Origin: Desulfobacterales bacterium
GTDB taxonomy: Bacteria > Desulfobacterota > Desulfobacteria > Desulfobacterales > JAUCGF01
Length of the DNA: 11,596 bases
Assembly (NCBI GenBank): GCA_029940345.1
Contig: JAOZRC010000106.1
Location: 1 to 11,596, forward strand
Direction: 5' to 3'
How positions within the stretch are numbered: position 1 is the stretch's first letter; each line of letters begins with the position of its first letter. Below the pieces are notes generated by a model that searched no databases, was not told the DNA's origin, and worked only from the letters and a program-made list of their open reading frames with translations. Positions 1 to 11,596 of this stretch are shown piece after piece. A program made the position numbers and the translations under genes.

Positions 1-18
1 TGGAAAGTCGTGATCGAA

Positions 19-122
19 GCGAAAAAGTGTGAGAGCGAGGGCTGATTTTCGCAAGTTTTAAGGGAATAGCCGGCCTATTGCCATGAAATTTGCGGAATTC
101 AAAACCGCTCACACGCTTTTGC
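19..122. repeat. Imperfect long palindrome upstream of qrcA
   Basis: The segment can fold into one long, interrupted hairpin. The outer arm near 19-38 (GCGAAAAAGTGTGAGAGCG) opposes 104-122 (CCGCTCACACGCTTTTGC) with small bulges. A middle arm at 46-58 (TTTTCGCAAGTTT) opposes 86-97 (AAATTTGCGGAA). The inner arm AATAG (65-69) opposes CTATT (75-79) around a CCGGC loop. There is no T-tract after the structure, so it does not look like an intrinsic terminator. Its ends do not match the three MITE-like elements elsewhere in the window, so it seems to belong to another palindrome class. I infer an interspersed repeat or a structured leader of the qrc operon; the sequence alone cannot tell these apart. 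Confidence 0.5.
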
Positions 123-208
123 AGCCGATTGAAGACTTTTCAAACAGGCTCTAAGGATGGATTCACGCGGTCCGTCTGAATACTCAATAACCTCTAAACG
201 GAGTTCCC

Positions 209-901
209 ATGAGCGCATCGGATGACAAATTGCAAGATGGAGCAATAGACGCTACCGACCCAGCGGCTAAAGCGGTGTCCCAAGACCAAAAAAAAAACAA
301 ACAGGATAATAACGCTGGCGGAATCGTGATCCTGTTTTTTATTATCGGTCTGGCAGCAAGCATGATTGTCGGGTGGATTATTTTCCCTAAATTACTTTAT
401 TCCCAGAAAAACCAGCCGATTGATTTCAGCCATGCGATTCATAATCAGGAAGTGGATAACGGTTGCGAAAGCTGCCATTTTTTCCGCGAAGACGGCACTT
501 TCGCCGGTGTTCCCAAGTTGGAGCAATGTATTGATTGCCACGAAGAGGTTCAGGGTGAAAGCGCCAGTGAAGCACGGTTTGTGGAAGAATATGTCAATAA
601 AGGACGCGAAGTGCCTTGGCTGATCTATTCCCGGCAGCCTGATTGCGTATTCTTTTCCCACGCGGCGCATGTTAAAAAAGGTGCCATGGAATGCAAAACT
701 TGTCACGGCCCCATCGAAAACTCGGAACATTTGAAACCATACCAGGAAAATCGGATTACGGGGGTCAGTCGGGATATTTGGGGATATAATATCGGCGGTT
801 TCAAGAAAAATGTATGGGACCGTATGAAAATGGATGATTGCGCCGAATGTCACATGAAAGACCTGGGAGTTAAAGACGCCTGTTTTGTTTGCCATAAATA
901 A
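209..901 (+). CDS. qrcA: QrcA, membrane-anchored multiheme cytochrome c subunit of menaquinone reductase
   Basis: This 230-residue protein is the electron-entry subunit of the Qrc complex and is expected to take electrons from periplasmic cytochrome c3. A hydrophilic, lysine-rich cytoplasmic tail (residues 1-37) is followed by one membrane helix (about 38-60) that serves as an uncleaved anchor. The periplasmic domain carries five CXXCH heme sites at C86-H90, C107-H111, C162-H166, C211-H215 and C225-H229. It also has two FSHxxH segments (H75/H78 and H151/H154) typical of heme axial ligands. The Desulfovibrio vulgaris QrcA is described as hexaheme; here only five canonical motifs are visible, plus a lone Cys146 next to H151. 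The start is ATG with GGAG five bases upstream. The gene opens the qrcABCD cluster. An ActA or other c7-like cytochrome is the alternative, but separate B and C genes downstream favour Qrc. Confidence 0.9.
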   Translation: MSASDDKLQDGAIDATDPAAKAVSQDQKKNKQDNNAGGIVILFFIIGLAASMIVGWIIFPKLLYSQKNQPIDFSHAIHNQEVDNGCESCHFFREDGTFAGVPKLEQCIDCHEEVQGESASEARFVEEYVNKGREVPWLIYSRQPDCVFFSHAAHVKKGAMECKTCHGPIENSEHLKPYQENRITGVSRDIWGYNIGGFKKNVWDRMKMDDCAECHMKDLGVKDACFVCHK

Positions 902-906
902 TTTTA

Positions 907-949
907 AAGTTATAAGTTTGAAGTTATAAGTTTGAAGTTTGAAGTTTTG
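907..949 (+). repeat. Short tandem repeat in the qrcA-qrcB gap
   Basis: Two perfect copies of the 14-mer AAGTTATAAGTTTG (907-920 and 921-934) are followed by AAGTTTG (935-941) and AAGTTTTG (942-949). The tract fills most of the 65-bp gap between qrcA and qrcB and ends just before the qrcB ribosome binding site AAGGGG (953-958). Copy number could vary by slippage without disturbing either gene. No function is evident. Confidence 0.75.
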
Positions 950-966
950 AACAAGGGGTTTAATTT

Positions 967-3249
967 ATGAAAATAGACAGAAGAAGTTTCCTGGCGCTGA
1001 GTATCGGTTCAACGGCAGGGATTCATCTTACGCCATTGCCATGGAAGCTGATGGATGACAGCTCAATCTGGACGCAAAATTGGCCATGGACGCCCGTTCC
1101 CAAGGATGGTGCGGCCAATTATGTCAATTCCGTGTGTGGCTTATGCCCGGCAGGATGTGGTATTTTGGTGCGTAAGATTGATAACCGGGCGGTTAAAATC
1201 GAAGGTCTTCCGGGACATCCTGTTAATGATGGCCGAATTTGCGGTCTTGGCCTTTCCGGTCTCCAGATGCTCTATGGAGGCACGCGTGTCAAAACACCTC
1301 TGAAACGCACAGGTGAACGCGGTGCCGGCCAGTGGCGAAAAATATCCTGGAGGAAGGCGATTGAGGAAATTTCCAATACGTTAATCGAACAGCGCAAATC
1401 CGGCAATCCTCAAGCACTGGGAGCGATTTGCAGTTCCGATCAGGGAACGACATCGCAATTGTTAAGTCGTTTTTTGAACGTGTATGGCTCTCCGAATTTC
1501 CTTCGCACTCCCTCAGTTCAGAGTTCTTACGAAATGGCCAATGCGCTGATGAACGGATCCCCGAAAGCGGTCGGGTTTGATTTGGAAAATGCCGACTATA
1601 TATTAAGCTTCGGAAGCGGTTTATTAGACGGATGGGTTTCACCGGTGCGCATGATCAGGGCTCACAGTATCTGGCAGGATGAAAAAGTGCCAGTGGTGCA
1701 AATTGAACCGCGCATGTCTCATACAGCAGCCAAAGCCGATAAATGGATTGCCATCAAACCCGGCGCAAATGCGGTACTTGCATTGGGAATGGCTTATGTA
1801 ATCATCAAAGAAAAACTGTACGATAAAAGATTTATTGAAAAACATAGTCTCGGTTTTGAAAGCTGGAAAGATGAAAAGGGGCGTCCTCACAAAGGGTTCA
1901 AGCAGTCCGTGATAGAAAATTATACCCCTGTCAAGGTGTCTGCAATCACTGGAATAGATGAGGCTATAATAATTCAGTTGGCCAAGGATTTTGCAGGCGC
2001 GGCTCTGCCGATCGCGCTTTGCGGAAGTGGTGATGGCACCGCACCGGGAAGTCTGAACGAAATGGCAGCCATACATGCCTTAAACGCGCTAAAAGGCGCT
2101 ATTAATAAAAAAGGCGGTGTGTGGGCGGTTCCCAGTCCCGATTATATTCTCTGGCCAGAATTGGAGATGGATGAAACGGCTTCTAAGGGTATCCAGACTG
2201 AGCGTTTTGATGGCGCGGGTGGAAAAAAATACGCCCAGGCACGTTCACTCTTAAACCGCCTTCCGGAGGTGATTAACGCCTCCTCTGAATCTCCGTTACA
2301 GTCATTGTTGGTTTATAATGCGAACCCAATGTATACCATGGCGGATAGCATTGCCGTGAAAGAGGCTTTCGCAAAAATACCGCTTATTGTCAGCTTTTCA
2401 CCTTATATGGATGAAACTGCCTCATACTCAGATTATATTCTACCGAATCATACCTATCTTGAGCGCTATGAAGATAGTGCGACGCCATTTGGATTCACGC
2501 AACCATTGATCAGTTTGGCTAAACCGGTTGTTAAACCGTTATTTAACACCAAACATACCGGTGATGTCATTATTAAATTGGCCCAGGTGATGGGCGATCA
2601 AATCGCCAAAGCATTTCCTTGGAAAGATTATCTGACCTGCTTAAAAACGACGATGGGTGATAAATGGAAAACATTGGTCAAACAGGGTTATATCGTCGAT
2701 AAAAATCATAAAGCGCCTGACTGGGCCAAGGGGTTTGAAACCGCATCGAAAAAATTCGAATTCGCGGCCAAAGCGGTCAATACGGATCCGAAGAGCGATG
2801 TGATTGCGCCTTCTGAGTTGAAACCGGCTGATTTGGAGGGGGACGCCAAGGCATTTCCGCTTGTGCTCATTCCTTATGATACAATGCGTCTGGCCAGTGG
2901 ATTTATCGGAACGCCTCCTTTTGTTGTTAAAACAGTCGGAGATGATGTTTTAAAAGCAAACGACAGTTGTGTTGATATTAATCCACAAACTGCCGAGGAG
3001 TTCGGTCTGACTGAAGGCGATAAAGCGATGTTAACAACGCCTAAAAGCGAAGTGCGCGTCAGAGCGCATCTTTCTGAAGGCATCCTTCCGGGTCTGATCG
3101 CCTTGCCTCGCGGTTTGGGGCACTCGGCATACGATAAATTTTTGGCAGGTAAAGGCATTAATTTCAACGCTTTACACGCTCCGAAGGCAGATCCGATTTC
3201 CGGCTTGGATACGACTTGGGGTGTTCGCGCCAAGATAAGCAAAGCCTAA
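967..3249 (+). CDS. qrcB: QrcB, molybdopterin-oxidoreductase-like subunit of menaquinone reductase
   Basis: This 760-residue periplasmic subunit of Qrc belongs to the DMSO reductase/formate dehydrogenase superfamily. The N-terminus MKIDRRSFLAL is a twin-arginine signal, so it is folded and fitted with cofactors before export. A [4Fe-4S] site follows at C57-x2-C60-x3-C64 with C92. The rest has the superfamily layout, including a C-terminal beta-barrel domain (about 630-760). In the family's usual metal-ligand region (about residues 180-197) there is no Cys or selenocysteine, only serines (S184, S186, S187). This fits the established view that QrcB and the related ActB lack molybdenum and serve as an electron-transfer scaffold. 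ATG 967 has AAGGGG eight bases upstream. It lies between the cytochrome and ferredoxin subunits in the same operon. A true polysulfide or thiosulfate reductase is the alternative, disfavoured by the missing ligand and the cytochrome partner. Confidence 0.9.
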   Translation: MKIDRRSFLALSIGSTAGIHLTPLPWKLMDDSSIWTQNWPWTPVPKDGAANYVNSVCGLCPAGCGILVRKIDNRAVKIEGLPGHPVNDGRICGLGLSGLQMLYGGTRVKTPLKRTGERGAGQWRKISWRKAIEEISNTLIEQRKSGNPQALGAICSSDQGTTSQLLSRFLNVYGSPNFLRTPSVQSSYEMANALMNGSPKAVGFDLENADYILSFGSGLLDGWVSPVRMIRAHSIWQDEKVPVVQIEPRMSHTAAKADKWIAIKPGANAVLALGMAYVIIKEKLYDKRFIEKHSLGFESWKDEKGRPHKGFKQSVIENYTPVKVSAITGIDEAIIIQLAKDFAGAALPIALCGSGDGTAPGSLNEMAAIHALNALKGAINKKGGVWAVPSPDYILWPELEMDETASKGIQTERFDGAGGKKYAQARSLLNRLPEVINASSESPLQSLLVYNANPMYTMADSIAVKEAFAKIPLIVSFSPYMDETASYSDYILPNHTYLERYEDSATPFGFTQPLISLAKPVVKPLFNTKHTGDVIIKLAQVMGDQIAKAFPWKDYLTCLKTTMGDKWKTLVKQGYIVDKNHKAPDWAKGFETASKKFEFAAKAVNTDPKSDVIAPSELKPADLEGDAKAFPLVLIPYDTMRLASGFIGTPPFVVKTVGDDVLKANDSCVDINPQTAEEFGLTEGDKAMLTTPKSEVRVRAHLSEGILPGLIALPRGLGHSAYDKFLAGKGINFNALHAPKADPISGLDTTWGVRAKISKA

Positions 3250-3323
3250 TAAGATAAAGCGGTAAAGCCTGATTCCGGCGGCAAGATGCTTTCAGACGCC
3301 GCTTAATATGTGTTGAGGTGTTA

Positions 3324-4124
3324 ATGGAAAACAATCATAAGAAGGGCAAAACAAAAAAATTCGGAATGGTCATTGATTTGGATAAATGCACGGGTTGCGG
3401 ATCCTGCATGGTGGCATGTATGTCTGAAAACAATGTACCGTTTAAAGCGGATGAAACTGACAAACGGCTCAGCATTACATGGATGCTTGTTTATAAATTT
3501 AATAACGGGAAAGCGCACCCGAATTATGATGAGTGCTATCTTCCCAGGCCATGCATGCAATGCGAAGGCGATCACGGACACTCCCCGTGCGTATCTGTCT
3601 GTCCGGCAGTGGCAACGGATTATTCGCATGAGACCGGGATTGTAAGCCAGATTTATACACGTTGTTTCGGATGCCGTTACTGTATGGCGGCCTGTCCTTA
3701 TCACGCGCGATACTTTAATTGGTGGGATCCGGCCTGGCCGGCCGACATGGAAAAATACTTAAGCCCCAATGTATCTCCGCGCATGCGAGGAATCGTTGAA
3801 AAGTGCGGCTTTTGTTTTCATCGCTACCAACTTGCAACCGATAAGGCCTACTATGAAGGACGGGATGAATTGGAAGAAGGCGAATATCAGACCGCTTGCA
3901 CACAAGCCTGTCCGGCCGGTGCGATTATCTTTGGCGATCTGAACAATCCTGAACATATGGTTCATAAAATTGCCCAACCGGACGCTAAACACCACGGACG
4001 TCCGAAGAATCCCAATGCTTTCAGATTATTAGAACGTTTGGGAACCAATCCCAAAGTGTATTATCTTTCAAGCCGCAAATGGGTGCGGGATTCCGGTGAT
4101 AATTATCGGCCTGATGAAAAGTAA
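3324..4124 (+). CDS. qrcC: QrcC, four-cluster ferredoxin-like subunit of menaquinone reductase
   Basis: This iron-sulfur subunit (266 residues from ATG 3324) wires QrcB to the membrane subunit QrcD. Sixteen cysteines fall into four binding groups: C22/C25/C28/C32, C77/C80/C89/C93, C114/C117/C120/C124 and C161/C164/C192/C196. That is the NrfC/PsrB arrangement for four cubane clusters. There is no export signal of its own; in such complexes the ferredoxin subunit is carried across the membrane with its Tat-bearing partner, here QrcB. Start choice: an in-frame GTG at 3318 would add two residues, but GAGGTG at 3315-3320 reads better as the Shine-Dalgarno site for ATG 3324, although the spacing is short. 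The 74-bp gap from qrcB holds only a weak 5-bp hairpin (3278-3302), so co-transcription is likely. Confidence 0.9.
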   Translation: MENNHKKGKTKKFGMVIDLDKCTGCGSCMVACMSENNVPFKADETDKRLSITWMLVYKFNNGKAHPNYDECYLPRPCMQCEGDHGHSPCVSVCPAVATDYSHETGIVSQIYTRCFGCRYCMAACPYHARYFNWWDPAWPADMEKYLSPNVSPRMRGIVEKCGFCFHRYQLATDKAYYEGRDELEEGEYQTACTQACPAGAIIFGDLNNPEHMVHKIAQPDAKHHGRPKNPNAFRLLERLGTNPKVYYLSSRKWVRDSGDNYRPDEK

Positions 4125-4148
4125 ATGAGTTTTTTTTAAACAATTAAT

Positions 4149-4180
4149 GGTGAATTATTACTCACCGAATACTGAGTATT
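4149..4180 (+). other. Two small hairpins in the qrcC-qrcD gap
   Basis: GGTGA (4149-4153) can pair with TCACC (4162-4166), and AATACTGAGTATT (4168-4180) is a 13-base odd palindrome. Both lie just upstream of the qrcD Shine-Dalgarno site AAGGAG (4184-4189). A T8 run at about 4128-4135 precedes rather than follows them, so they do not form a forward terminator. They might tune qrcD translation or mRNA processing, which is inference only. Confidence 0.3.
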
Positions 4181-4198
4181 GACAAGGAGTCAGACCTT

Positions 4199-5446
4199 AT
4201 GGATTTGGATTCGGCATTATGGCCTAAGGATGTTCAACGCTGTTCGTTTCCGAAGTTTATGATCGGCATTACGGTGGTCACCTTAGTGCTGATTTGGGGT
4301 GTTTATGCCGCCCTGCTCTGCTGGTTTAAAGGCCTGAATCAGACCAACATGAACGATTACTATGGTTTCGCTTTATGGATTTGGGCTGATTTGGCCATTA
4401 TCGGGCTGGGTGGCGGTGCTTTTTTCACCGGTTTTCTACGGTATCTTGTTAAAAAAGATGAACTTAAAAATATCATCAACTATGCCGTATTGATCGGTTT
4501 TATTTGCTACAGTTCGGCGCAGCTCATTTTAGGTATTGATGTAGGCCAGCCGCTTAGAGGATGGTTTATTTTCTGGCATGCGAATGTACATTCAATGCTC
4601 ACGGAAGTGGCCTTTTGCCTCTCCTGCTATTTTGTTGTTTTGTGTATTGAATATATACCGCTCATTCTTGAAAACAGGCAGTTGGACAAAGAACCTTTCT
4701 TTCATCATCTCAGCCATAACATGCACGGCATTATGGCGATATTCGCCGCAACCGGCGCTTTTCTTTCTTGTTTCCATCAGGGTTCGTTGGGAGGTGTATC
4801 CGGCGTCCTGTTTGGGCGACCTTTCGGATTTCGGGAAGGCATATTTATTTGGCCATGGACATTCTTTCTTTTTACATGGTCAGCTGCCGCTTGTGGCCCC
4901 TGTTTTACCATCCTGGTTACGAAACTGACTGAAACCATTTCCAAAAAGCAGCTTGTGAAACCTGATGTAATTGATCTGCTTGCCAAAATATCCGGCTGGA
5001 TGATGTTCACTTACATTATTGCTAAGACCGTTGATACTTGGTACTGGGCTCTATATACAGCGCCTTCCAAAGGTTTTAACTGGGCCTTTTTCTATTCTGA
5101 TAATGCTTTTTACGGACCTTGGATATTGTGGCTCGAAATTGTTATATGTGGTTATATACCTGCGATGCTTCTGATTACGAAAAAGACTCGTCAGAAAAAT
5201 GCCACGCTTTGGACTGCGATTATCCTTGCGTCAATCGGCGTTTGCGTCAATCGTTGGGCGTTAGTACTCCAGGTAATGGCGCCACCGGTGCTGCCATTTG
5301 ATACGTGGGCATTATATATACCAAGTTGGCAGGAAGTGGCAACAACCATATTGCCAATTGCTTATGGTGTGATTCTGATAATGATCTCATATCGTTATTT
5401 ACCCATATTTCCTCAAGAGCGGGAATTGAATCCCATAACGAATTAG
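4199..5446 (+). CDS. qrcD: QrcD, NrfD/PsrC-type integral membrane quinone-binding subunit
   Basis: This 415-residue polytopic membrane protein of the NrfD/PsrC family has about ten hydrophobic helices and provides the menaquinone site of Qrc. Recognisable family features are the small-residue helix GLGGGAFFTG near residue 70, the CFHQGSLGG segment in the middle (compare the HQxSLG motif of NrfD proteins) and the NRW segment near the C-terminus. Electrons are expected to reach it from QrcC on the periplasmic face. In the related PsrC and ActC proteins, polar residues inside such helices have been discussed as proton routes; whether this copy conserves energy cannot be judged here. The start is ATG with AAGGAG nine bases upstream. 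No clear terminator follows the stop codon, so transcription may continue into the spacer. Confidence 0.9.
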   Translation: MDLDSALWPKDVQRCSFPKFMIGITVVTLVLIWGVYAALLCWFKGLNQTNMNDYYGFALWIWADLAIIGLGGGAFFTGFLRYLVKKDELKNIINYAVLIGFICYSSAQLILGIDVGQPLRGWFIFWHANVHSMLTEVAFCLSCYFVVLCIEYIPLILENRQLDKEPFFHHLSHNMHGIMAIFAATGAFLSCFHQGSLGGVSGVLFGRPFGFREGIFIWPWTFFLFTWSAAACGPCFTILVTKLTETISKKQLVKPDVIDLLAKISGWMMFTYIIAKTVDTWYWALYTAPSKGFNWAFFYSDNAFYGPWILWLEIVICGYIPAMLLITKKTRQKNATLWTAIILASIGVCVNRWALVLQVMAPPVLPFDTWALYIPSWQEVATTILPIAYGVILIMISYRYLPIFPQERELNPITN

Positions 5447-5495
5447 TTTCTTAATAAAAAGTTGGGTTGAATATAAGATACAGCAAGTAAATTAA

Positions 5496-5912
5496 GCGAT
5501 CAGCGGTCAGTAAAGAGTTCAGGTCCTTTGTTAAAATCAGCCTGTTATCCATACTGCAACGCTAATAAATGATGGAAACTAAACCGACGCACTTCACCGA
5601 ATAGATGTAACTTTTGAAATATCGGTTTATCGTCGGATCGGTTGTTTCCAATATACAAATTGCATTACACGGAATGACGTGTTAGATTTGCCATTGTTCA
5701 TCAAAGAGATTCCGGATATTAAAAGAAGAGTGCAGTCGAAAGTGGTGCCGATCTAGTTTTTCACTAATGTTATTGTTGGAATTGCTTTTGGGCGCTGCTG
5801 CTTCCTCATAAGATTTTGACCGGAACATGATGACAAACTTGCTTTTTATCAATACTGAAAATTAAACGAAGCAAACACATCGTTCAATGACTCTGAGACG
5901 ACCGCTGATCGC
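5496..5912. repeat. Perfect 13-bp inverted repeat bracketing about 390 bp
   Basis: GCGATCAGCGGTC at 5496-5508 is the exact reverse complement of GACCGCTGATCGC at 5900-5912. The match does not extend outward or inward, and no direct repeat flanks the two ends, so evidence for a transposable unit is weak. The word resembles repetitive spacer DNA and could be two independent copies of a short dispersed repeat. The interval encodes nothing recognisable. Confidence 0.45.
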
Positions 5913-5917
5913 ACATT

Positions 5918-5950
5918 TTCAGTCTGACATTTTTTTGGGACTGAAGGAGG
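5918..5950 (+). promoter_or_regulatory. Hairpin abutting a strong ribosome binding site
   Basis: TTCAGTC (5918-5924) can pair with GACTGAA (5939-5945) around a T-rich loop. The 3' arm overlaps the first bases of the Shine-Dalgarno site AAGGAGGT (5944-5951), which sits six to seven bases before ATG 5957. The Shine-Dalgarno match is nearly ideal and is the main reason to accept the small gene that follows. Partial masking by the hairpin could affect translation, but that is inference. Confidence 0.5.
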
Positions 5951-5956
5951 TATAAA

Positions 5957-6115
5957 ATGTTTCCATTTAGTTTTGAGTGGGCTTGGGATATGTCCCATAT
6001 CGTCTTTATGGGCGGATTATGGTACGCATTATCCATTATTGGTGCTGGTATGACCTATTGTATAATTAAGGCTGTTATAGATACCTTGGGAGGCGACGCT
6101 GACGATCACCATTAG
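5957..6115 (+). CDS. Small single-span membrane protein (52 residues), function unknown
   Basis: I do not recognise a named family. The protein starts MFPFSFEWAWDMSHIVFMGG, continues with one hydrophobic helix (about residues 15-41, rich in Gly, Ile, Tyr and Trp) and ends in a short acidic and histidine-rich tail (GGDADDHH). The aromatic N-terminus and the GxG pair (GAG at 29-31) inside the helix suggest packing against another membrane protein. Evidence that it is real: AAGGAGGT at ideal spacing from ATG, an uninterrupted frame of sensible amphipathic design, and an intrinsic terminator just downstream. It lies about 510 bp after qrcD on the same strand. It could be a small accessory subunit of Qrc or of another respiratory complex, but nothing in the sequence proves a partner. 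The short length means it is easily missed by annotation. Confidence 0.75.
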   Translation: MFPFSFEWAWDMSHIVFMGGLWYALSIIGAGMTYCIIKAVIDTLGGDADDHH

Positions 6116-6142
6116 AGTGCATGGTCTCATTAATAAAAGCGT

Positions 6143-6266
6143 GCAACTAACAAGCCGGGACAATAATTTAACGCGGAAAGTTGATCTGCATCGTTCATAT
6201 CCGCTTCAAGGTTGAAGAAGTGGCAAAGCTTTCCGACTTACTTTGTACCGCCTTGTGTTGGTAGCC
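6143..6266 (-). mobile_element. MITE-like palindromic element, copy 1, with exact 9-bp target duplication
   Basis: A 124-bp element bracketed by TAAAAGCGT at 6134-6142 and again at 6267-6275, an exact 9-bp direct repeat touching both ends. That is the mark of a transposition target-site duplication. The right end reads CCTTGTGTTGGTAGCC; the left end is a decayed inverse (GCAACTAACAAGCCGGGACA). Its reverse complement aligns along most of its length with copy 3, including GGAAAG/CTTTCC arms and a core TCAACCTTGAAGCGG, so it lies in the opposite orientation to copies 2 and 3. There is no reading frame inside, so it would need a transposase from elsewhere. The insertion hit the 5' arm of the terminator after the small gene. 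Confidence 0.8.
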
Positions 6267-6267
6267 T

Positions 6268-6325
6268 AAAAGCGTTTACCTTTTGATTTTTATTTTATCA
6301 TAAAGGCAGACGCTTTTTTATTTTT
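6268..6325 (+). terminator. Rho-independent terminator after the small membrane-protein gene
   Basis: AAAAGCGT (6268-6275) pairs with ACGCTTTT (6310-6317). Inside it CCTTT and GAT pair with AAAGG and ATC, with one mismatch and one bulge, around a TTTTATTTT loop. The 3' arm runs into TTTTTTATTTTT. It most likely ends the transcript of the gene at 5957-6115. The 9-bp target duplication of the neighbouring element contains the 5' arm sequence, so the insertion left a complete terminator on the far side. Confidence 0.75.
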
Positions 6326-6410
6326 GAAAATCGCGATTGGTCATTTCCAGTTCAAAATTAATTCAAAACAAGAACTTACACCTGACGAGCATATAAAAAC
6401 AGAGGTTACA

Positions 6411-7661
6411 TTGGATAAAATAATTGTGGAAGGAGGACATCCGTTAAAAGGCCAAGTCAACATTAGCGGCGCAAAAAATGCAGCGCTCCCCATTCTTATT
6501 TCGTCACTTTTAACTGAAGGTCAGAACACATTTACCAATGTTCCAAATCTTCAAGATATTAAAAGCACGCTTACTTTACTGAAACATCTTGGTGCCAGGG
6601 TTGAAACTCATGGCCATACAGTGCGAATCGATTGCAGCAACCTTGGCAACCATGAAGCACCTTATGATTTGGTCCGTAAAATGCGAGCCTCTATACTTGT
6701 TTTGGGACCGCTGGTGGCCAAACTTCAAAAAGCACGCGTTTCTTTGCCCGGAGGGTGTGCTATCGGCGCACGGCCGATCAATTTACATCTTAAGGGACTT
6801 AAACACCTTGGAGCTGCCATTGAACTGAAACATGGTTATGTGGAAGCATCGGCCCCGAATTTACGCGGTGATGAAATTTACTTAGATACACCGACCGTCA
6901 CAGGCACTGAAAACTTAATGATGGCAGCGGTGATGGCGCAAGGCCAAACGATCCTGCGCAATGCGGCGCGCGAACCTGAAATTATGGCATTGGCTGATGT
7001 GTTAAATCAGATGGGAGCGCATATATCAGGTGCCGGAACTTCGGTTATAAAAATTAAAGGAGTGAAATCATTGCACCCTGTTTCGACTCGTATTATTCCT
7101 GATCGGATTGAAACCGGCACGTTTATGGTTGCAGCGGCAATGACCCAGGGTGATATTGAAATTTTAAATTGTGAGCCGGGTCATTTAAGCGGGTTGATTA
7201 ACAGGTTGCGATTAACCGGGGCTGATGTTACCATTAATGGCAACATTATCAGGGTGAAAGGACATGATTTGATTAATAGCGTTGATATCAAAACAATGCC
7301 ATATCCCGGATTTCCCACTGATATGCAGGCTCAGTTTATGACCCTGATGTCAGTTGCCAATGGTTTAAGCCTGATCTCGGAACGAATTTTTGAAAACCGG
7401 TTTATGCATGTGAGTGAATTAAAACGTATGGGTGCTGATATTCGTGTATGCGGTCGTTCCGCTGTGGTTCAGGGTGTTCCTAATTTGTCAGCCGCGCCAG
7501 TAATGGCAAGTGATTTAAGAGCCAGTGCTTCACTGATACTAGCCGGCCTTGTTGCCAAAGGCAAAACAGAGGTGAATCGCATATATCATTTAGATCGCGG
7601 TTATGAGGCCATTGAAGATAAATTTCGTAAACTTGGCGCAGCTATCAAAAGAGTTGCCTGA
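6411..7661 (+). CDS. murA: UDP-N-acetylglucosamine 1-carboxyvinyltransferase (MurA)
   Basis: MurA transfers enolpyruvate from phosphoenolpyruvate to UDP-GlcNAc, the first committed step of peptidoglycan synthesis, in the cytoplasm. From TTG 6411 the protein has 416 residues, close to E. coli MurA (419), and starts like the family with [14 protein letters not shown]. Lys22 of the SGAKNAALP motif matches the conserved active-site lysine. The catalytic cysteine is present in [11 protein letters not shown] (about Cys116), so the enzyme should be fosfomycin-sensitive type. Other family blocks are [14 protein letters not shown] ([10 protein letters not shown]), [19 protein letters not shown] and [14 protein letters not shown] ([10 protein letters not shown]). 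The frame stays open upstream to a TTG at 6324, but that codon lies in the terminator T-tract. TTG 6411 has AGAGG five bases ahead and fits the family N-terminus. It stands alone, with no cell-wall neighbours. Confidence 0.93.
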
Positions 7662-7707
7662 AATAAATCAACCAAACGATTATCGTATTCGCATCAAACG
7701 ATGTTTT

Positions 7708-7840
7708 GGCTACCCACATAAGGCGGGACAGACGTAGATTGGGTTGAGGAACGAAACTCAACGAATTTAGGTTGATGTCAGGTTTCGTTCCTCAATCCAA
7801 CCCTCGACTACATTTAGTGTCCCGGCTTATGTTGGTAGCC
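7708..7840 (+). mobile_element. MITE-like palindromic element, copy 2
   Basis: A 133-bp near-perfect palindrome. The ends GGCTACCCACATAAGGCGGG and the inverse of CCCGGCTTATGTTGGTAGCC match in all but two positions. An inner arm TTGGGTTGAGGAACGAAAC opposes GTTTCGTTCCTCAATCCAA with a single difference. The loop CTCAACGAATTTAGGTTGATG keeps the TCAAC, AAT, GGTT and ATG words of copy 3, although the inner arms are unrelated in sequence. Flanks CGATGTTTT (7699-7707) and CGATATTTT (7840-7848) agree at 8 of 9 bases, consistent with an older 9-bp target duplication. It lies 46 bp after murA and could act as a transcript-ending or mRNA-protecting hairpin, although it has no T-tract. Confidence 0.75.
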
Positions 7841-7861
7841 GATATTTTAATTAGAAATATG

Positions 7862-7907
7862 GGCATCCTTCATTCTTCGAACTGTAAACCGGAAAATGAA
7901 GGATGCC
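7862..7907. repeat. 13-bp perfect hairpin
   Basis: GGCATCCTTCATT (7862-7874) is exactly complementary to AATGAAGGATGCC (7895-7907), with a 20-base loop. It is followed by TAAAATCC rather than a T-run, so terminator activity is doubtful. Coming soon after copy 2, it may be part of the same 3' structure after murA. Confidence 0.6.
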
Positions 7908-7946
7908 TAAAATCCTTACTAAATTAAATCCTTGTATATCAGCGAG

Positions 7947-8015
7947 AAAAGTGTAAACACTTTTAGCCTCACATGAAGATGCCGCGAATTGTAATCAGAT
8001 TAGAATTTTAATCTG
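7947..8015. repeat. Two adjacent short hairpins
   Basis: AAAAGTGT (7947-7954) and ACACTTTT (7957-7964) form an 18-base palindrome with a two-base centre. CAGATTA (7996-8002) and TAATCTG (8009-8015) pair across a six-base loop. Palindromes of this size could be operators for a dimeric regulator of the downstream pit gene or simply structured repeats. No known operator was recognised. Confidence 0.4.
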
Positions 8016-8027
8016 CTTAAATCAATT

Positions 8028-8064
8028 TTTTCAGCTTTCCGAATTCTCTGCGGAAAGCTGAAAA
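8028..8064. repeat. 14-bp perfect hairpin sharing a 10-mer with MITE copy 3
   Basis: TTTTCAGCTTTCCG (8028-8041) pairs exactly with CGGAAAGCTGAAAA (8051-8064) around AATTCTCTG. The word CAGCTTTCCG also occurs in the inner arm of copy 3 (11508-11517), and a shorter form occurs in copy 1. It may be a stripped relic of such an element or a chance use of the same arm. No T-tract follows on either strand. Confidence 0.6.
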
Positions 8065-8070
8065 GTAACC

Positions 8071-8095
8071 CTTTGCGCTCTTTGCGTCTTTGCGG
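8071..8095 (+). repeat. CTTTGCG heptamer repeat
   Basis: Three CTTTGCG units occur in a row with short spacers: 8071-8077, 8080-8086 and 8088-8094. The composite (CTTTGCGCTCTTTGCG then TCTTTGCGG) is a type of intergenic repeat I remember from several unrelated environmental genomes, though I cannot cite a source. It sits about 33 bp before the transporter start. Confidence 0.6.
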
Positions 8096-8127
8096 TGAAC
8101 TGTTAGGAAATGTGAAATAGATTAAAC

Positions 8128-9354
8128 ATGGGTCAGGAAATTTATATACTTTATATAGGATATGCTTTCGGCTTTTATATGGCTTGGAATATCGGTGCCA
8201 ATGATGTCGCTAATTCCATGGCCTCCGCAGTCGGAGCCAAAGCCATTACGATTCGTCAGGCGATTTACATCGCGGCGATCTTAAATGTCGTGGGTGCCAC
8301 GTTTCTCGGTTCACACGTTACCAAAACCATTCGTAAGGGTATTGTATCCACTGATATCATGGCCGACCCTCATATCGCATTGATTGGCGCTCTTTCGGCG
8401 CTGTTGGCTGCCGCTTTATGGGTTTCGTTTGCCACTTGGAAATCCCTTCCCGTTTCAACGACCCATTCTATTGTTGGTGCAATGATCGGCTTTGGCGTTA
8501 TGGCGGGTGGCTTTTCTGTTATCAACTTGGGAAAACTCGGCGCCGTTGTGATGAGTTGGATGATCTCGCCTGTTTTTGCTCTGCTAATCAGCTATGGCAT
8601 GTTTAAATTGATTGTTAAGCTTATTTTATCACGTCGTGATCCGTTTGAACGAGCGCTTAGATTATCGCCTTTGTTCGTGGGATTGACTGCTTTTGTTATT
8701 GTTTTATCTTTTTTATTTAAAACGCCATTGGGGAAAAAATTGCATGTTTCTATGCCGGTTGCTATATTGATTGCACTTGCGCTGGCTGCTTTCCTGGGAT
8801 ACATTGGGATGAGATTGTTAGCTCGTTACGTTGGACGTCTATCATCCCGTGATGAAGAAGAAATATTTCGACGCATCCAAATCGGAACCTCTTGTTATGT
8901 GGCCCTGGCCCAGGGGTCCAATGATGTCGCCAATGCCATAGGTCCTTTGGCAGTTATTTATTTTATAGTAAAAACCGGTGGCATTGGTGCCAACGTGCCG
9001 GTTCCGATTTTTTTATTATTATTCGGTGGCGTCGGCATCGCTTGCGGAATCAGTATGGCGGGACATCGGGTAATGGATACCATCGGACGCAAAATAACAA
9101 CATTGAGCAACTCGCGTGGCTTTGCCGTTGATTTTGCCGCAGCTACCACTGTTTTGATCGCTTCCAAACTGGGTTTACCGGTTTCCACAACACATGCTAC
9201 GGTTGGCGGCGTAATGGGCGTCGGCTTGGCGCGTGGAATGGAAGCGGTCAATTTTAAAATTATTTTTAAAATTATGCTATACTGGATTTTGACTGTTCCC
9301 GCTTCCGCACTAACCAGCATGGTGATTTTTAAAATCCTTCAATATTTACTTTAA
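8128..9354 (+). CDS. PiT-family inorganic phosphate transporter
   Basis: This 408-residue, polytopic membrane protein is a low-affinity, cation-coupled phosphate carrier of the PiT family (PF01384). The two halves each carry the signature: GANDVANSM at residues 23-31 and GSNDVANAI at 263-271. Each half also has an STTH motif followed by a glycine-rich helix (residues 110-113 and 353-356). This shows the inverted internal duplication of the family, and both halves look intact. A central soluble loop (about 165-250) is short. The ATG at 8128 gives the usual short lead before AWNIGANDVAN, although no good Shine-Dalgarno site precedes it (AGGAA is about 20 bases away). It is followed after ten bases by its DUF47 partner. 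The coupling ion, H+ or Na+, cannot be read from sequence by eye. Confidence 0.92.
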   Translation: MGQEIYILYIGYAFGFYMAWNIGANDVANSMASAVGAKAITIRQAIYIAAILNVVGATFLGSHVTKTIRKGIVSTDIMADPHIALIGALSALLAAALWVSFATWKSLPVSTTHSIVGAMIGFGVMAGGFSVINLGKLGAVVMSWMISPVFALLISYGMFKLIVKLILSRRDPFERALRLSPLFVGLTAFVIVLSFLFKTPLGKKLHVSMPVAILIALALAAFLGYIGMRLLARYVGRLSSRDEEEIFRRIQIGTSCYVALAQGSNDVANAIGPLAVIYFIVKTGGIGANVPVPIFLLLFGGVGIACGISMAGHRVMDTIGRKITTLSNSRGFAVDFAAATTVLIASKLGLPVSTTHATVGGVMGVGLARGMEAVNFKIIFKIMLYWILTVPASALTSMVIFKILQYLL

Positions 9355-9364
9355 AGGAGGAGTT

Positions 9365-10033
9365 ATGCGTATCCCATTTCTTTCAATGTTTTTGACATCA
9401 CCGTTTGATGGCCTTGAGGAACATGCCGCCAAGGTAAAAGACTGCGCCTGGACGTTTCAGCAGGCAATGGAGTGTCATGTTTCCAAACGATGCAAACGTT
9501 TTGACGAGCTTAGAAAGGAAATTATTCACCTGGAAAGTGAGGCTGACGCCATTAAGCGCCGTATTCGGGGACATATTCCCCAGGGAACGTTAATGCCCGT
9601 GGATAAATTCCAATTGTTTCGCTATCTTCGCGAACAGGACAATGTTCTTGATGCGTGTGAAGATGCGATGGATTGGATTTCTTATCGAAGTGACCCCGGA
9701 ATACCCAAAGAATTGGAAAAAGATTTCCTGCTTTTGGTCGATGCGGTGGTGGATCCGATTGATCAGCTCAGTCTCATGGTCGCTGAGGCGCGTGAATATT
9801 TTCGAGGGTACGCCGATGAGCAACGCGTTAAGGTAAAAGAGATAATTCGCAGGCTTCGTGAACAAGAACATCAGGCCGACAAACATGAAGATGTCATAAA
9901 AGAGAAAACCCTGAATTTGAAAATTGATCCGGTTACGATTTTTCACATGATTCGATTAGCGGAAATCATTGGCAGCATCGCGGACCACGCCGAAAATGCG
10001 GGTGATATGATGCGTGCGATGGTCGCTAAGTAA
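9365..10033 (+). CDS. DUF47 / PhoU-like Pit accessory protein
   Basis: This 222-residue, all-helical cytoplasmic protein of the DUF47 family (TIGR00153, PF01865) is related to PhoU. It is commonly encoded next to PiT transporters and thought to regulate them. Family segments visible are EKEI-type helix ESEADAIKRRI (about residues 57-67), REQDNVLDACEDAMDW (about 89-104), RRLREQEHQADKHE (about 158-171) and the C-terminal IADHAENAGDMMRAMV. The E/D-rich pairs match the metal-binding E/DxxxD pattern of PhoU proteins. The start is fixed by AAAGGAGG at 9353-9360, four bases before ATG. It overlaps the transporter stop and implies coupled translation of the two genes. A polyphosphate role is known for some relatives but is not shown here. 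Confidence 0.9.
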   Translation: MRIPFLSMFLTSPFDGLEEHAAKVKDCAWTFQQAMECHVSKRCKRFDELRKEIIHLESEADAIKRRIRGHIPQGTLMPVDKFQLFRYLREQDNVLDACEDAMDWISYRSDPGIPKELEKDFLLLVDAVVDPIDQLSLMVAEAREYFRGYADEQRVKVKEIIRRLREQEHQADKHEDVIKEKTLNLKIDPVTIFHMIRLAEIIGSIADHAENAGDMMRAMVAK

Positions 10034-10035
10034 CT

Positions 10036-10785
10036 GTGAATAATAACGTCCCAGTTTTTGAAAAGCAAGCTTTCGTCGGCGTTTACAAATGTCGGAATAT
10101 GAAAATGGCTCCAAAATCTGAAACGCCCAAGAGAACGAAACAGGGTCTGCGCATTATATCTGCTGACGATGATTTAATGGCTCTGTTTGATGAAAGCAAC
10201 AATTCCAAAGAAACAGACTCTCACCCAAAAACTATTCACCAACTGAAGAAACAACCGACCAGCGTGACTTGCGTCCAAAATGCGCTTACATCAGACGGAC
10301 TGCGAGAATCACGCTCACCTCTGACCTCCCGCAAAATCCCAGTTTCCGTCCAAAACACAACTGCTGATTCTGGCAATGATGATGAAAACTTTGAGGATAT
10401 GCTTGAAGCATCATTATCTAAAATGAAAATTAACGATATCCTGAAGCAAAAAAATGGCGATGTAGATGAAGAATCTACTTCGATTCAGGAATTGGTAAAA
10501 TCGCACCCTCCGCCGCAGATGCAGATTGACTTGCATGGCTGTACTCGGAAAGAAGCCAAACGTAAGGCGGATTCATTTATATACAGTGCAAGTTATAAGG
10601 GGCTGAAAACGGTGCGCATTATTGTTGGTAAAGGCATCCATTCAACAGGAGATGCGGTATTACCGGATGTGATCGAAACTAAAATGATTGCGCTTAAAAA
10701 AGAGCGGGTCGTGTTGAGCTATTGTTGGGAGAAACGTAAAAAGCGTAAAAGTGGCGCTATGATCGTTTATTTAGTGCAGTCTTGA
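10036..10785 (+). CDS. Smr-domain protein
   Basis: The C-terminal third (about residues 160-249) is an Smr domain (PF01713). It has DLHG at 165-168 and the GKGIHSTGD segment at 198-206, the two signature blocks, and then a basic KRKKRKSGAM tail strand. Smr domains bind nucleic acid, and several are nucleases. In bacteria, stand-alone forms have been linked to cleaving ribosome-bound mRNA (SmrB) or to recombination (MutS2). The first 150 residues are polar and low in complexity and appear disordered. Start is uncertain: GTG 10036 is two bases after the DUF47 stop but has no ribosome binding site. ATG 10105 (protein MAPKSE...) has GGA eight bases ahead and is perhaps the better start. No functional link to the phosphate genes is evident. 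Confidence 0.8.
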   Translation: MNNNVPVFEKQAFVGVYKCRNMKMAPKSETPKRTKQGLRIISADDDLMALFDESNNSKETDSHPKTIHQLKKQPTSVTCVQNALTSDGLRESRSPLTSRKIPVSVQNTTADSGNDDENFEDMLEASLSKMKINDILKQKNGDVDEESTSIQELVKSHPPPQMQIDLHGCTRKEAKRKADSFIYSASYKGLKTVRIIVGKGIHSTGDAVLPDVIETKMIALKKERVVLSYCWEKRKKRKSGAMIVYLVQS

Positions 10786-10797
10786 GGGCGATCAGTA

Positions 10798-11415
10798 TCA
10801 TTGCAAAATTAATTCGAATATCGCCCGATCACCGGTAAAACTGATCAGACGATTCCGAAATATTTCCACTTTAGCAGCGTCCAATTTGATACGGATCATC
10901 ACATCAGCCTCAAAACGTTCCCGGATTGATTGGGCGTCAAGGCTTTGAAGCGCTCTTTTGACGGCGTTATGATCTGCGTATTCACATGTGATACGGCATT
11001 GAACAAACGCTGTTTTTATAACAACCGGCAGCGATTCGAGCACTTTTTGAACCATACCGGAATAGGCCCGCACCAATCCGCCTGTCCCCAGTTTGACACC
11101 GCCGAAATAGCGTGTTGCAACAACTGCTATCTCGCCTAAATCGGCATGTAAAAGCACGTTTAACATCGGACGTCCGGCCGTTCCGTGCGGTTCGCCGGCA
11201 TCGCTCATTCCCACCTTGGCAGTACTTCCAGGCGCTCCGGCATTATAGGCCCAGCAATGATGGTCGGCACCCGGAAATTCCGTTTTGATGATTGTAATAA
11301 AGCGTTTCGCCTGCTCCGGTGTGGAGACATGCGCCGCCGTGGCAATGAAACGGCTTCGTTTGATACTTTCTTCCACACGATGGTTGGCTTTTGGGATGGG
11401 ATAATTCGTATTCAT
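10798..11415 (-). CDS. yigZ: YigZ / IMPACT family protein (UPF0029)
   Basis: From ATG at 11415 the protein has 205 residues, matching E. coli YigZ (204). The N-terminal domain has the family blocks KRSRFIATAAHV, HHCWAYNAGAP, SDAGEPHGTAGRPML and RYFGGVKLGTGGLVRAY. A smaller C-terminal ferredoxin-like domain follows. The eukaryotic relative IMPACT regulates Gcn2; the bacterial function is not settled. The frame continues upstream to a GTG at 11436, but that codon is inside mobile-element copy 3, so ATG 11415 is preferred. No Shine-Dalgarno site lies in the nine bases between the ATG and the element, so the insertion may have separated the gene from its native signal. The stop is 12 bases from the stop of the convergent Smr gene, with no terminator visible between them. 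Confidence 0.9.
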   Translation of the reverse strand: MNTNYPIPKANHRVEESIKRSRFIATAAHVSTPEQAKRFITIIKTEFPGADHHCWAYNAGAPGSTAKVGMSDAGEPHGTAGRPMLNVLLHADLGEIAVVATRYFGGVKLGTGGLVRAYSGMVQKVLESLPVVIKTAFVQCRITCEYADHNAVKRALQSLDAQSIRERFEADVMIRIKLDAAKVEIFRNRLISFTGDRAIFELILQ

Positions 11416-11424
11416 ACTATTCGT

Positions 11425-11550
11425 GGCTACCAGCACAAGGCGGGACAGAGCAAAACGGAAAGCCGTTTCGCTTCTTCAACCTTAATGCGGTTATGAGCGA
11501 CGCGTAACAGCTTTCCGCGTTACTTAAGTGTCCCGGCTTTGTTGGTAGCC
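11425..11550 (+). mobile_element. MITE-like palindromic element, copy 3
   Basis: A 126-bp element with ends GGCTACCAGCACAAGGCGGG and CCCGGCTTTGTTGGTAGCC in inverted orientation. Its inner arms (CGGAAAGC and GCTTTCCG) enclose the core TCAACCTTAATGCGGTTATG. It aligns throughout with the reverse complement of copy 1. Flanking target duplication is weak: CTATT occurs at both borders (11417-11421 and 11551-11555) and the rest has diverged. On the minus strand its outer edge lies nine bases before the yigZ start, so it forms the upstream region of that gene. Confidence 0.75.
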
Positions 11551-11596
11551 CTATTTTCATTTCCCTTGAATTGATAGGCTTCCGGATAATCAATGT
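11551..11596. other. Unassigned end of window
   Basis: These 46 bases follow copy 3 and show no gene or structure. Read on the minus strand, they hold AAGGGA, which would have been about 12 bases from the yigZ ATG before the element inserted. Confidence 0.3.

Follow-up and report, generated by a model that had tools for sequence, protein, structure and literature searches.

Short transposons with the ends of a probable DUF6399 insertion sequence and paired REP palindromes in their interiors in a Desulfobacterales genome

Background

Miniature inverted-repeat transposable elements (MITEs) are on record from bacteria in several families, including RUP, NEMIS/Correia, ERIC, Nezha and others (PMC3733652). 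Also on record are GTAG-type repetitive extragenic palindromes (REPs), dimers of REPs in long palindromes and REP-targeting insertion sequences (PMC3733652, PMC3116915, PMC2817692, PMC1525189). For example, many GTAG-15 dimers of A. variabilis sit within long palindromes (section 7 of PMC3733652), and compensatory changes are common in REPIN hairpins (PMC3116915). Here we analyse three related repeats in an 11,596-nucleotide stretch of a Desulfobacterales bacterium (contig JAOZRC010000106.1, positions 1 to 11,596; hereafter the window), which an earlier note made from the sequence letters had read as a folded element family with exchanged inner stems. All three repeats belong to one small, non-coding transposon family, a MITE that occurs at many sites of the genome. 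In the reading that we consider highly probable, these MITEs are moved by a DUF6399 transposase and carry pairs of REPs as cargo.

Like the described bacterial MITEs, the elements have terminal inverted repeats that match the ends of a full-length element, target duplications, intergenic positions and a high copy number, and no coding capacity was seen in them; unlike those MITEs, they have a putative parent transposase of the DUF6399 family and combine a single set of ends with several interiors that are unrelated to one another. Their inner arms resemble the GTAG REPs and REPINs described in PMC3733652 and PMC3116915 in starting with GTAG or GTAA, in being palindromic and present in high copy, and in forming inverted pairs. 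They differ in that the ends of an insertion sequence, bordered by 8-bp duplications, make up the outer palindrome, and in that no cognate REP-associated tyrosine transposase (RAYT) was found for either REP (8 of 11 Y1 transposase loci, in a fragmented assembly). Our literature searches, with ISfinder outside the comparison, found no report of several REP families inside one insertion-sequence end set.

Results and Discussion

A transposed family of short elements

Three elements with common ends lie in the window, as the earlier note had proposed, and its coordinates hold for copies 2 and 3; copy 1 starts at 6142 and not at 6143. The elements and their flanks are as follows (loci elsewhere are cited by L numbers).

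6142..6266, minus strand: copy 1, subfamily B MITE of 125 bp; right end degenerate; empty site in the genome G001
7708..7840, plus strand: copy 2, subfamily A MITE of 133 bp, from end pattern and flank pairing
11425..11550, plus strand: copy 3, subfamily B MITE of 126 bp, from end pattern and alignment
6134..6141, no strand: copy 1 target duplication TAAAAGCG, first, read from the sequence
6267..6274, no strand: copy 1 target duplication TAAAAGCG, second, read from the sequence; G001 has a single TAAAGGCG here
7700..7707, no strand: copy 2 target duplication GATGTTTT, a 7/8 match to GATATTTT
7841..7848, no strand: copy 2 target duplication GATATTTT, from flank pairing
11417..11424, no strand: copy 3 left flank CTATTCGT, a possible decayed target duplication; 5/8 match to CTATTTTC, weak alone
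11551..11558, no strand: copy 3 right flank CTATTTTC, read from the sequence

The element ends are 23 bp long, GGCTACCNNCAYAAG(G/C)CGGGACA. With up to three mismatches allowed, the end pattern gave 129 forward and 133 reverse matches in the window's genome (6.05 Mb in 1024 contigs), and the reversed pattern used as a control gave 0/0. Few or no further copies would have spoken against the proposal of a genomic family that keeps its ends and carries a direction mark; the abundance of ends bears that proposal out. The window has 0 Rfam matches at the gathering threshold. From the first 100 listed end places and the places of REP_A, one of the interior repeats described below, 138 clusters were built, all of which were retrieved, and the window was added. 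This set holds 60 paired elements, spanning 58-231 bp, and 67 single ends, many of them at contig ends.

Flanking duplications could be tested in 59 of the 60 paired elements, the remaining one lacking a left flank. Perfect 8-bp duplications border 25/59 elements, and in 36/59 at least seven of the eight bases match; at each of the lengths 3-7 and 9-14, perfect flank repeats number 0 or 1 among the same elements. The chance expectation for perfect 8-bp repeats is about 0.002 of the 59 (65% A+T). Copy 1 stands outside the 25 because the automated pairing put its border two bases off. The 25 perfect duplications are A+T-rich inside and favour G or C at their edges. In the same-genus genome G001, probably that of Desulfococcaceae bacterium HSG9, copy 1 is absent, including its ends, and a single TAAAGGCG is followed by the same TTTACC. 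This comparison was possible for one of the three window copies, the surroundings of copies 2 and 3 being different in G001. Together, the 8-bp duplications and the empty site show that transposition has taken place.

None of 39 elements lies inside a frame of at least 150 codons, against 397 of 780 random placements; this location test covered the window, L001-L075 and L243-L272, and used elements with 600 bp on both sides. As the earlier note observed, one end reads AAGGCGG and the other AAGCCGG in all three window copies, and 28/60 paired elements combine an end with GGCG and an opposite end with GCCG or GCTG. Copy 1 is inverted according to this mark, and the alignment of its interior to that of copy 3 agrees (score 66; 0/500 shuffles as high).

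A stricter end pattern, searched in one genome per species, found at least 45 stretches, mostly in Desulfobacterales. Other carriers among the matches listed are Methylobacter, Methylovulum, Methylocucumis, Nitrosomonas and a Bacteroidales metagenome-assembled genome (MAG), with one lone end in Paenibacillus, again among the matches listed. A contig filed under a Bacteroidales MAG (L071) has three subfamily A/C elements like those of the window's genome, reflecting misbinning or transfer.

A probable parent element with a DUF6399 frame

At five loci (L004, L061, L072, L074 and L032) a single end lies directly past the C-terminus of a frame, and the frames at L072 and L074 match DUF6399 (4.9e-42 and 1.2e-41). 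One complete DUF6399 element with matching ends was found, in a related genome (L078). It is 1,759 bp long, has an open DUF6399 frame of 528 codons and is bordered by an 8-bp duplication, TAGTTTAC; its ends, GGCTACCTACCTAAAGCGGGACA and GGCTACCCACCTAAGCCGGGACA, are nearly the same as those of the MITEs. Since the two ends of L078 differ at the position of the AAGGCGG/AAGCCGG mark, the mark represents a difference between left and right ends. Recognition by a transposase can account for the conservation of the ends, since 8-bp duplications border the elements and L078 is an intact DUF6399 element whose ends are almost the same. Conceivably, the parent element belongs to the ISNCY/ISDol1 group.

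Of 21 DUF6399 matches, 12 are followed by an element end at a distance of 23-52 bp downstream. DUF6399 occurs in 9 of the 146 genomes searched, the window's own included, and eight of these are over the cut-off. A search for the ends across the same 146 genomes (at most two mismatches; 3 hits in all for the reversed control) found them in 26, namely in 7/9 genomes with DUF6399 and 19/137 without. Ten or more end matches per genome were seen in 5/9 DUF6399 genomes and in 0/137 others.

A simple search for inverted ends around eight DUF6399 frames found them in L078, L086 and L314 and did not find them in L082, L088, L091, L312 and L313. At L314 the duplication measures 8 bp with the element start placed at GGC, and 6 or 10 by other borders; L086 has no target duplication at its inverted ends. 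DUF6399 frames without the GGCTACC end that characterises the present family (L082, L086, L088, L091, L093, L094) share TGG(G/C)CGAA shortly downstream, which is perhaps part of the GGCCTTGATCAT-type ends found in L086 and L314.

The predicted fold of DUF6399 resembles that of DDE transposases. In the predicted structure, strand order and fold matches are compatible with an RNase-H-like core, with Hermes, ISCth4 and integrases among the structures matched; D144, D198 and E454 are invariant in 42 DUF6399 sequences, among many other invariant positions. DUF6399 nevertheless differs from the hAT (Hermes) and IS256-type (ISCth4) DDE transposases, with a sequence identity of 12-14% and TM-scores of about 0.3. 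Naming the protein by sequence was abandoned, the best solved-structure matches being de novo helical proteins (7.2e-6) and winged-helix proteins and none a transposase. No Pfam or NCBIfam transposase model matched above the cut-off; ISL3 and IS481 are among the NCBIfam matches far below it. There are at least 1,150 homologs at E <= 0.001, plasmid records label the protein DUF6399 or hypothetical, and no paper on DUF6399 was found in our literature searches.

Different REP pairs within the same ends

Both insertion-sequence ends and REP elements, the two comparisons raised by the earlier note, proved to be involved. REP_A, GTAGGYTGGGTTGAGGAACGAAACC (with T in the search pattern), has 59 + 60 matches in the genome and REP_B, GTARAGCGGAAAGCYGTTCCGC, has 122 + 125, with 0/0 in the control in both cases. 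They are GTAG-tagged short palindromes, high in copy and arranged as inverted pairs, as expected of REP-type repeats, and REP_B is often GTAA-tagged. Their arms in the window are as follows.

6220..6241, minus strand: copy 1 REP_B-type arm, decayed, from alignment and the REP_B pattern
6168..6189, plus strand: copy 1 REP_B-type arm, decayed, opposite orientation, from alignment
7734..7758, plus strand: copy 2 REP_A arm, a GTAG-tagged palindrome
7781..7805, minus strand: copy 2 REP_A arm, opposite orientation
11450..11471, plus strand: copy 3 REP_B arm with the tag mutated to GCAA, from alignment and the REP_B pattern
11502..11523, minus strand: copy 3 REP_B arm, opposite orientation, from alignment

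Among the 60 paired elements, the interior is REP_A in 24, REP_B in 16, of the GAGGCTCTGCCTC type in 10, AAAAATCGGGTTTCT in five and none of these in five; two elements without a listed interior are only 58 bp long. In the window, copies 1 and 3 hold REP_B pairs and copy 2 a REP_A pair. The stems appeared to be exchanged because these REP pairs are unrelated: the inner stem of copy 2 does have another sequence, as the earlier note stated, yet this stem is a different repeat, REP_A in place of REP_B, rather than a re-paired version of one stem.

A central core common to the three copies did not hold up. The likeness of copy 2 to copy 1 was reached by 180/500 shuffles under strict scoring and 369/500 under loose scoring. 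Copies 2 and 3 show some likeness (1/500 and 10/500 shuffles as high). The consensus sequences of the two subfamilies were matched by 29/500 and 57/500 shuffles, and a core common to copy 2 and copies 1 and 3 was rejected as near chance at that level.

Both REPs also occur away from these ends. REP_A pairs without recognisable ends are found at L132 and L133, and at the REP_A locus L121 the right end may be present in decayed form. In L149 and L152 another inverted-repeat frame encloses a REP_A variant from both sides; in L127, L139, L146 and L147 this frame is seen on the one side that is visible. Loci of exact REP_B number 30: the present ends are near in 11, of which two represent the arms of a single element; 12 are held by a second palindromic frame, in the opposite arrangement; and seven are in neither frame.

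Several further observations concern these interiors. The frame around the REP_A variant (GTAGGCTGGGTT..) is of the GTGTGTAATTCACGA.CGTCGGTT type at all six loci (L127, L139, L146, L147, L149, L152), and the second palindromic frame of REP_B is GTAACCGTTCACTCCCC..GGGGAGTGAACGGTTAC (seen among L243-L272 and L103). A third GTAG palindrome (GTAGGGTGGGTGGAG..) stands beside the usual left end at L193, where no right end was seen, and at L220 an arm is broken directly after GTAG and followed by unrelated sequence. The loop of subfamily A is oriented one way relative to the ends in 8/25 sequences and the other way in 17/25, as if the inner part were able to flip between its inverted arms.

Pairing and covariation of the inner stems

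Covariation was examined within each subfamily, in set A (25 sequences, of which this genome contributed 18 and other records seven) and set B (13 sequences, of which this genome contributed 11 and HSG9 two, after removal of two reverse duplicate rows). In set A, 97.2% of cells pair, against 97.0% in shuffles, and two-sided change is seen in 2/50 pairs, against a shuffled mean of 1.9 (350/500 shuffles as high); cells with two-sided change number 14 against 9.2 (48/500), and the covariation score was reached by 52/500. The figures for set B are 93.9% against 93.7% of cells pairing, 1/36 pairs with two-sided change against a mean of 0.6 (285/500), two such cells against 0.7 (42/500), and 29/500 for the covariation score. 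There is thus at most a weak excess of two-sided cells, possibly from the relatedness of the sequences. The two two-sided pairs of set A are neighbours that toggle between two states and are unpaired in 5-6 of the 25 sequences and wobble in 4/25; exchange between the two arms would be a simpler account of them, and of the two loop orientations, than stepwise compensation. The lack of a clear excess of compensatory change sets these stems apart from REPIN hairpins, as PMC3116915 describes them.

The covariation check proposed in the earlier note thus gave the outcome that speaks against its reading, simple decay without covariation, within each subfamily. The exchange of stems is not supported as a sign of selection on a folded RNA or single-stranded DNA, because the stems are unrelated repeats and no clear covariation excess is present within either subfamily. 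Structured RNA was accordingly set aside as the main explanation, there being no Rfam match in the window and no clear covariation; a possible role of the hairpins as RNA or single-stranded DNA is not shown by these data.

Movement of the REPs: Y1 transposases and an IS110-type element

The Y1 transposase has 11 matches in the window's genome, and neither REP_A nor REP_B was found at the own borders of the loci examined (0 of 8, out of the 11, in a fragmented assembly). At G000:C794 the Y1 frame is followed after 22 bp by an exact REP_B; the chance of a REP_B that close to a Y1 gene is about 0.09 for 11 genes. This gene was rejected as a RAYT partner: the REP_B sits in a GTAACCGTTCACTCCCC.. 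frame inserted at the Y1 stop codon, and the Y1 gene and its relatives carry inverted ends of their own, of the GGGGTCGGRCC type.

A RAYT-like exchange at the GTAG tag was likewise considered for L204 and L216, which are broken right after GTAG, and was dismissed since the joined sequence is part of an IS110-type element. The end of this element lies directly after GTAG in 10/10 matches, eight of which are within a MITE arm; the IS110-type assignment (a PF01548 frame) rests on one locus, L281. The ends are of the CGACTGTKATYAAWGWCAAG type (L273-L282). Insertion sequences that target REPs are on record (PMC1525189). The IS110-type end directly after GTAG agrees with that pattern, and what differs here is that the targeted REP is inside a MITE, which adds a third nesting layer.

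Weighing the explanations

In the explanation that we favour, and hold with high confidence, the three elements would be non-autonomous MITEs whose ends are those of an insertion sequence, the transposase of which would be a DUF6399 protein having an RNase-H/DDE-like core. This transposase would be supplied in trans by the full element, of which a related genome has an intact copy and this assembly fragments; it would act on the ends, whose mark distinguishes left from right, and insert the element at A+T-rich intergenic sites, leaving 8-bp duplications. The interior would be cargo, either an inverted pair of GTAG-tagged REPs or, in other subfamilies, other inserts, and the REP pairs may first have been captured by the pair of ends and later have multiplied together with it. 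Catalysis by DUF6399, its action in trans and the order of capture and amplification are what the sequence comparisons suggest.

Several observations weigh against this account. Fewer than seven of eight flank bases match in 23/59 elements; 9/21 DUF6399 matches have no such end nearby; two of the nine DUF6399 genomes are without ends, and 19 genomes without DUF6399 have 1-6 end matches (the reversed control has 3 hits there too). The window's own assembly yielded no complete DUF6399 gene, only fragments, one of them cut by a contig end. In the predicted structure E454 falls in a poorly modelled stretch, and the TM-scores to transposases are low. Capture of cargo was not observed.

The elements could instead be kept by selection as structured RNAs or single-stranded DNA hairpins, acting as terminators, mRNA stabilisers or protein-binding sites, with the stem sequence free as long as pairing is kept. 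Copies 2 and 3 have strong predicted RNA folds (-72 and -63 kcal/mol), none of the 39 testable elements lies inside a long frame, GTAG REPs are believed to function as RNA elements (PMC3733652), and two-sided cells are somewhat above shuffles in both sets. We nevertheless find this very improbable: most changes break or wobble pairs, two-sided pairs stay near their shuffled means, Rfam gave no match in the window, the interiors are unrelated across subfamilies and nearly absent in the 58-bp elements, and the duplications and empty site show transposition. We give as little credence to the view that the mobile unit is the inner REP pair, moved in REPIN fashion by a RAYT (Y1 transposase), with the GGCTACC ends as part of a larger hairpin. 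The GTAG tag, the inverted pairs, the 119 REP_A and 247 REP_B matches, the 11 Y1 matches and the REP pairs found without these ends would suit it, but the 8-bp duplications border the GGCTACC ends on the outside, some elements have these ends without any REP, none of the eight examined Y1 loci is bordered by REP_A or REP_B, and the one nearby REP_B is inside another inserted palindrome.

A further view, unlikely but less so than these two, denies independent REPs altogether and treats the inner palindromes as parts of the MITE, copies without ends being decayed or truncated. It is consistent with L132 and L133, which keep subfamily A bases beside the tag (CTACGACT), with the possible decayed right end in L121, and with the many contigs that end inside elements. 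It sits poorly with the REP_B loci in the second frame, with its opposite arrangement, and in neither frame, the REP_A variant framed by other inverted repeats, or the third GTAG palindrome beside the same left end at L193. Beyond movement by DUF6399 with REP pairs as cargo, one may propose a DUF6399 insertion-sequence family whose miniatures carry several REP families and spread them by a DDE transposase with 8-bp duplications, so that REPs lacking their own RAYT could disperse inside a genome and from one genome to another, the changed stems being swapped cargo; this wider proposal is tentative, and we would not yet call it probable.

Other features of the window

Genes near the three copies are MurA-like (EPSP synthase family), PHO4 and UPF0029. 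About 480 bp at 5457-5938 are absent at the same place in G001 and contain inverted GCGATCAGCGGTC at 5496-5508 and 5900-5912; this is probably another, older insertion. Right behind copy 2, at 7862-7907, lies a palindrome, GGCATCCTTCATT..AAATGAAGGATGCC, whose motif occurs in 23 of 168 loci of the same genome (at most one mismatch), which indicates another repeat family. A short tandem repeat with a 14-bp unit is located behind a cytochrome c gene at 900-948.

Conclusions

These results call for caution in the reading of repeat families, in which stems that are paired but different can reflect different cargo and not compensatory change. For DUF6399, a Pfam family of unknown function, the results point to a likely function as a DDE-type transposase, and the ends and 8-bp duplication are now defined for part of the family. 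The elements also suggest a route by which REP palindromes may spread without a RAYT, and with it a mechanism for REP dimers in long palindromes, an observation dating from 2013 (section 7 of PMC3733652).

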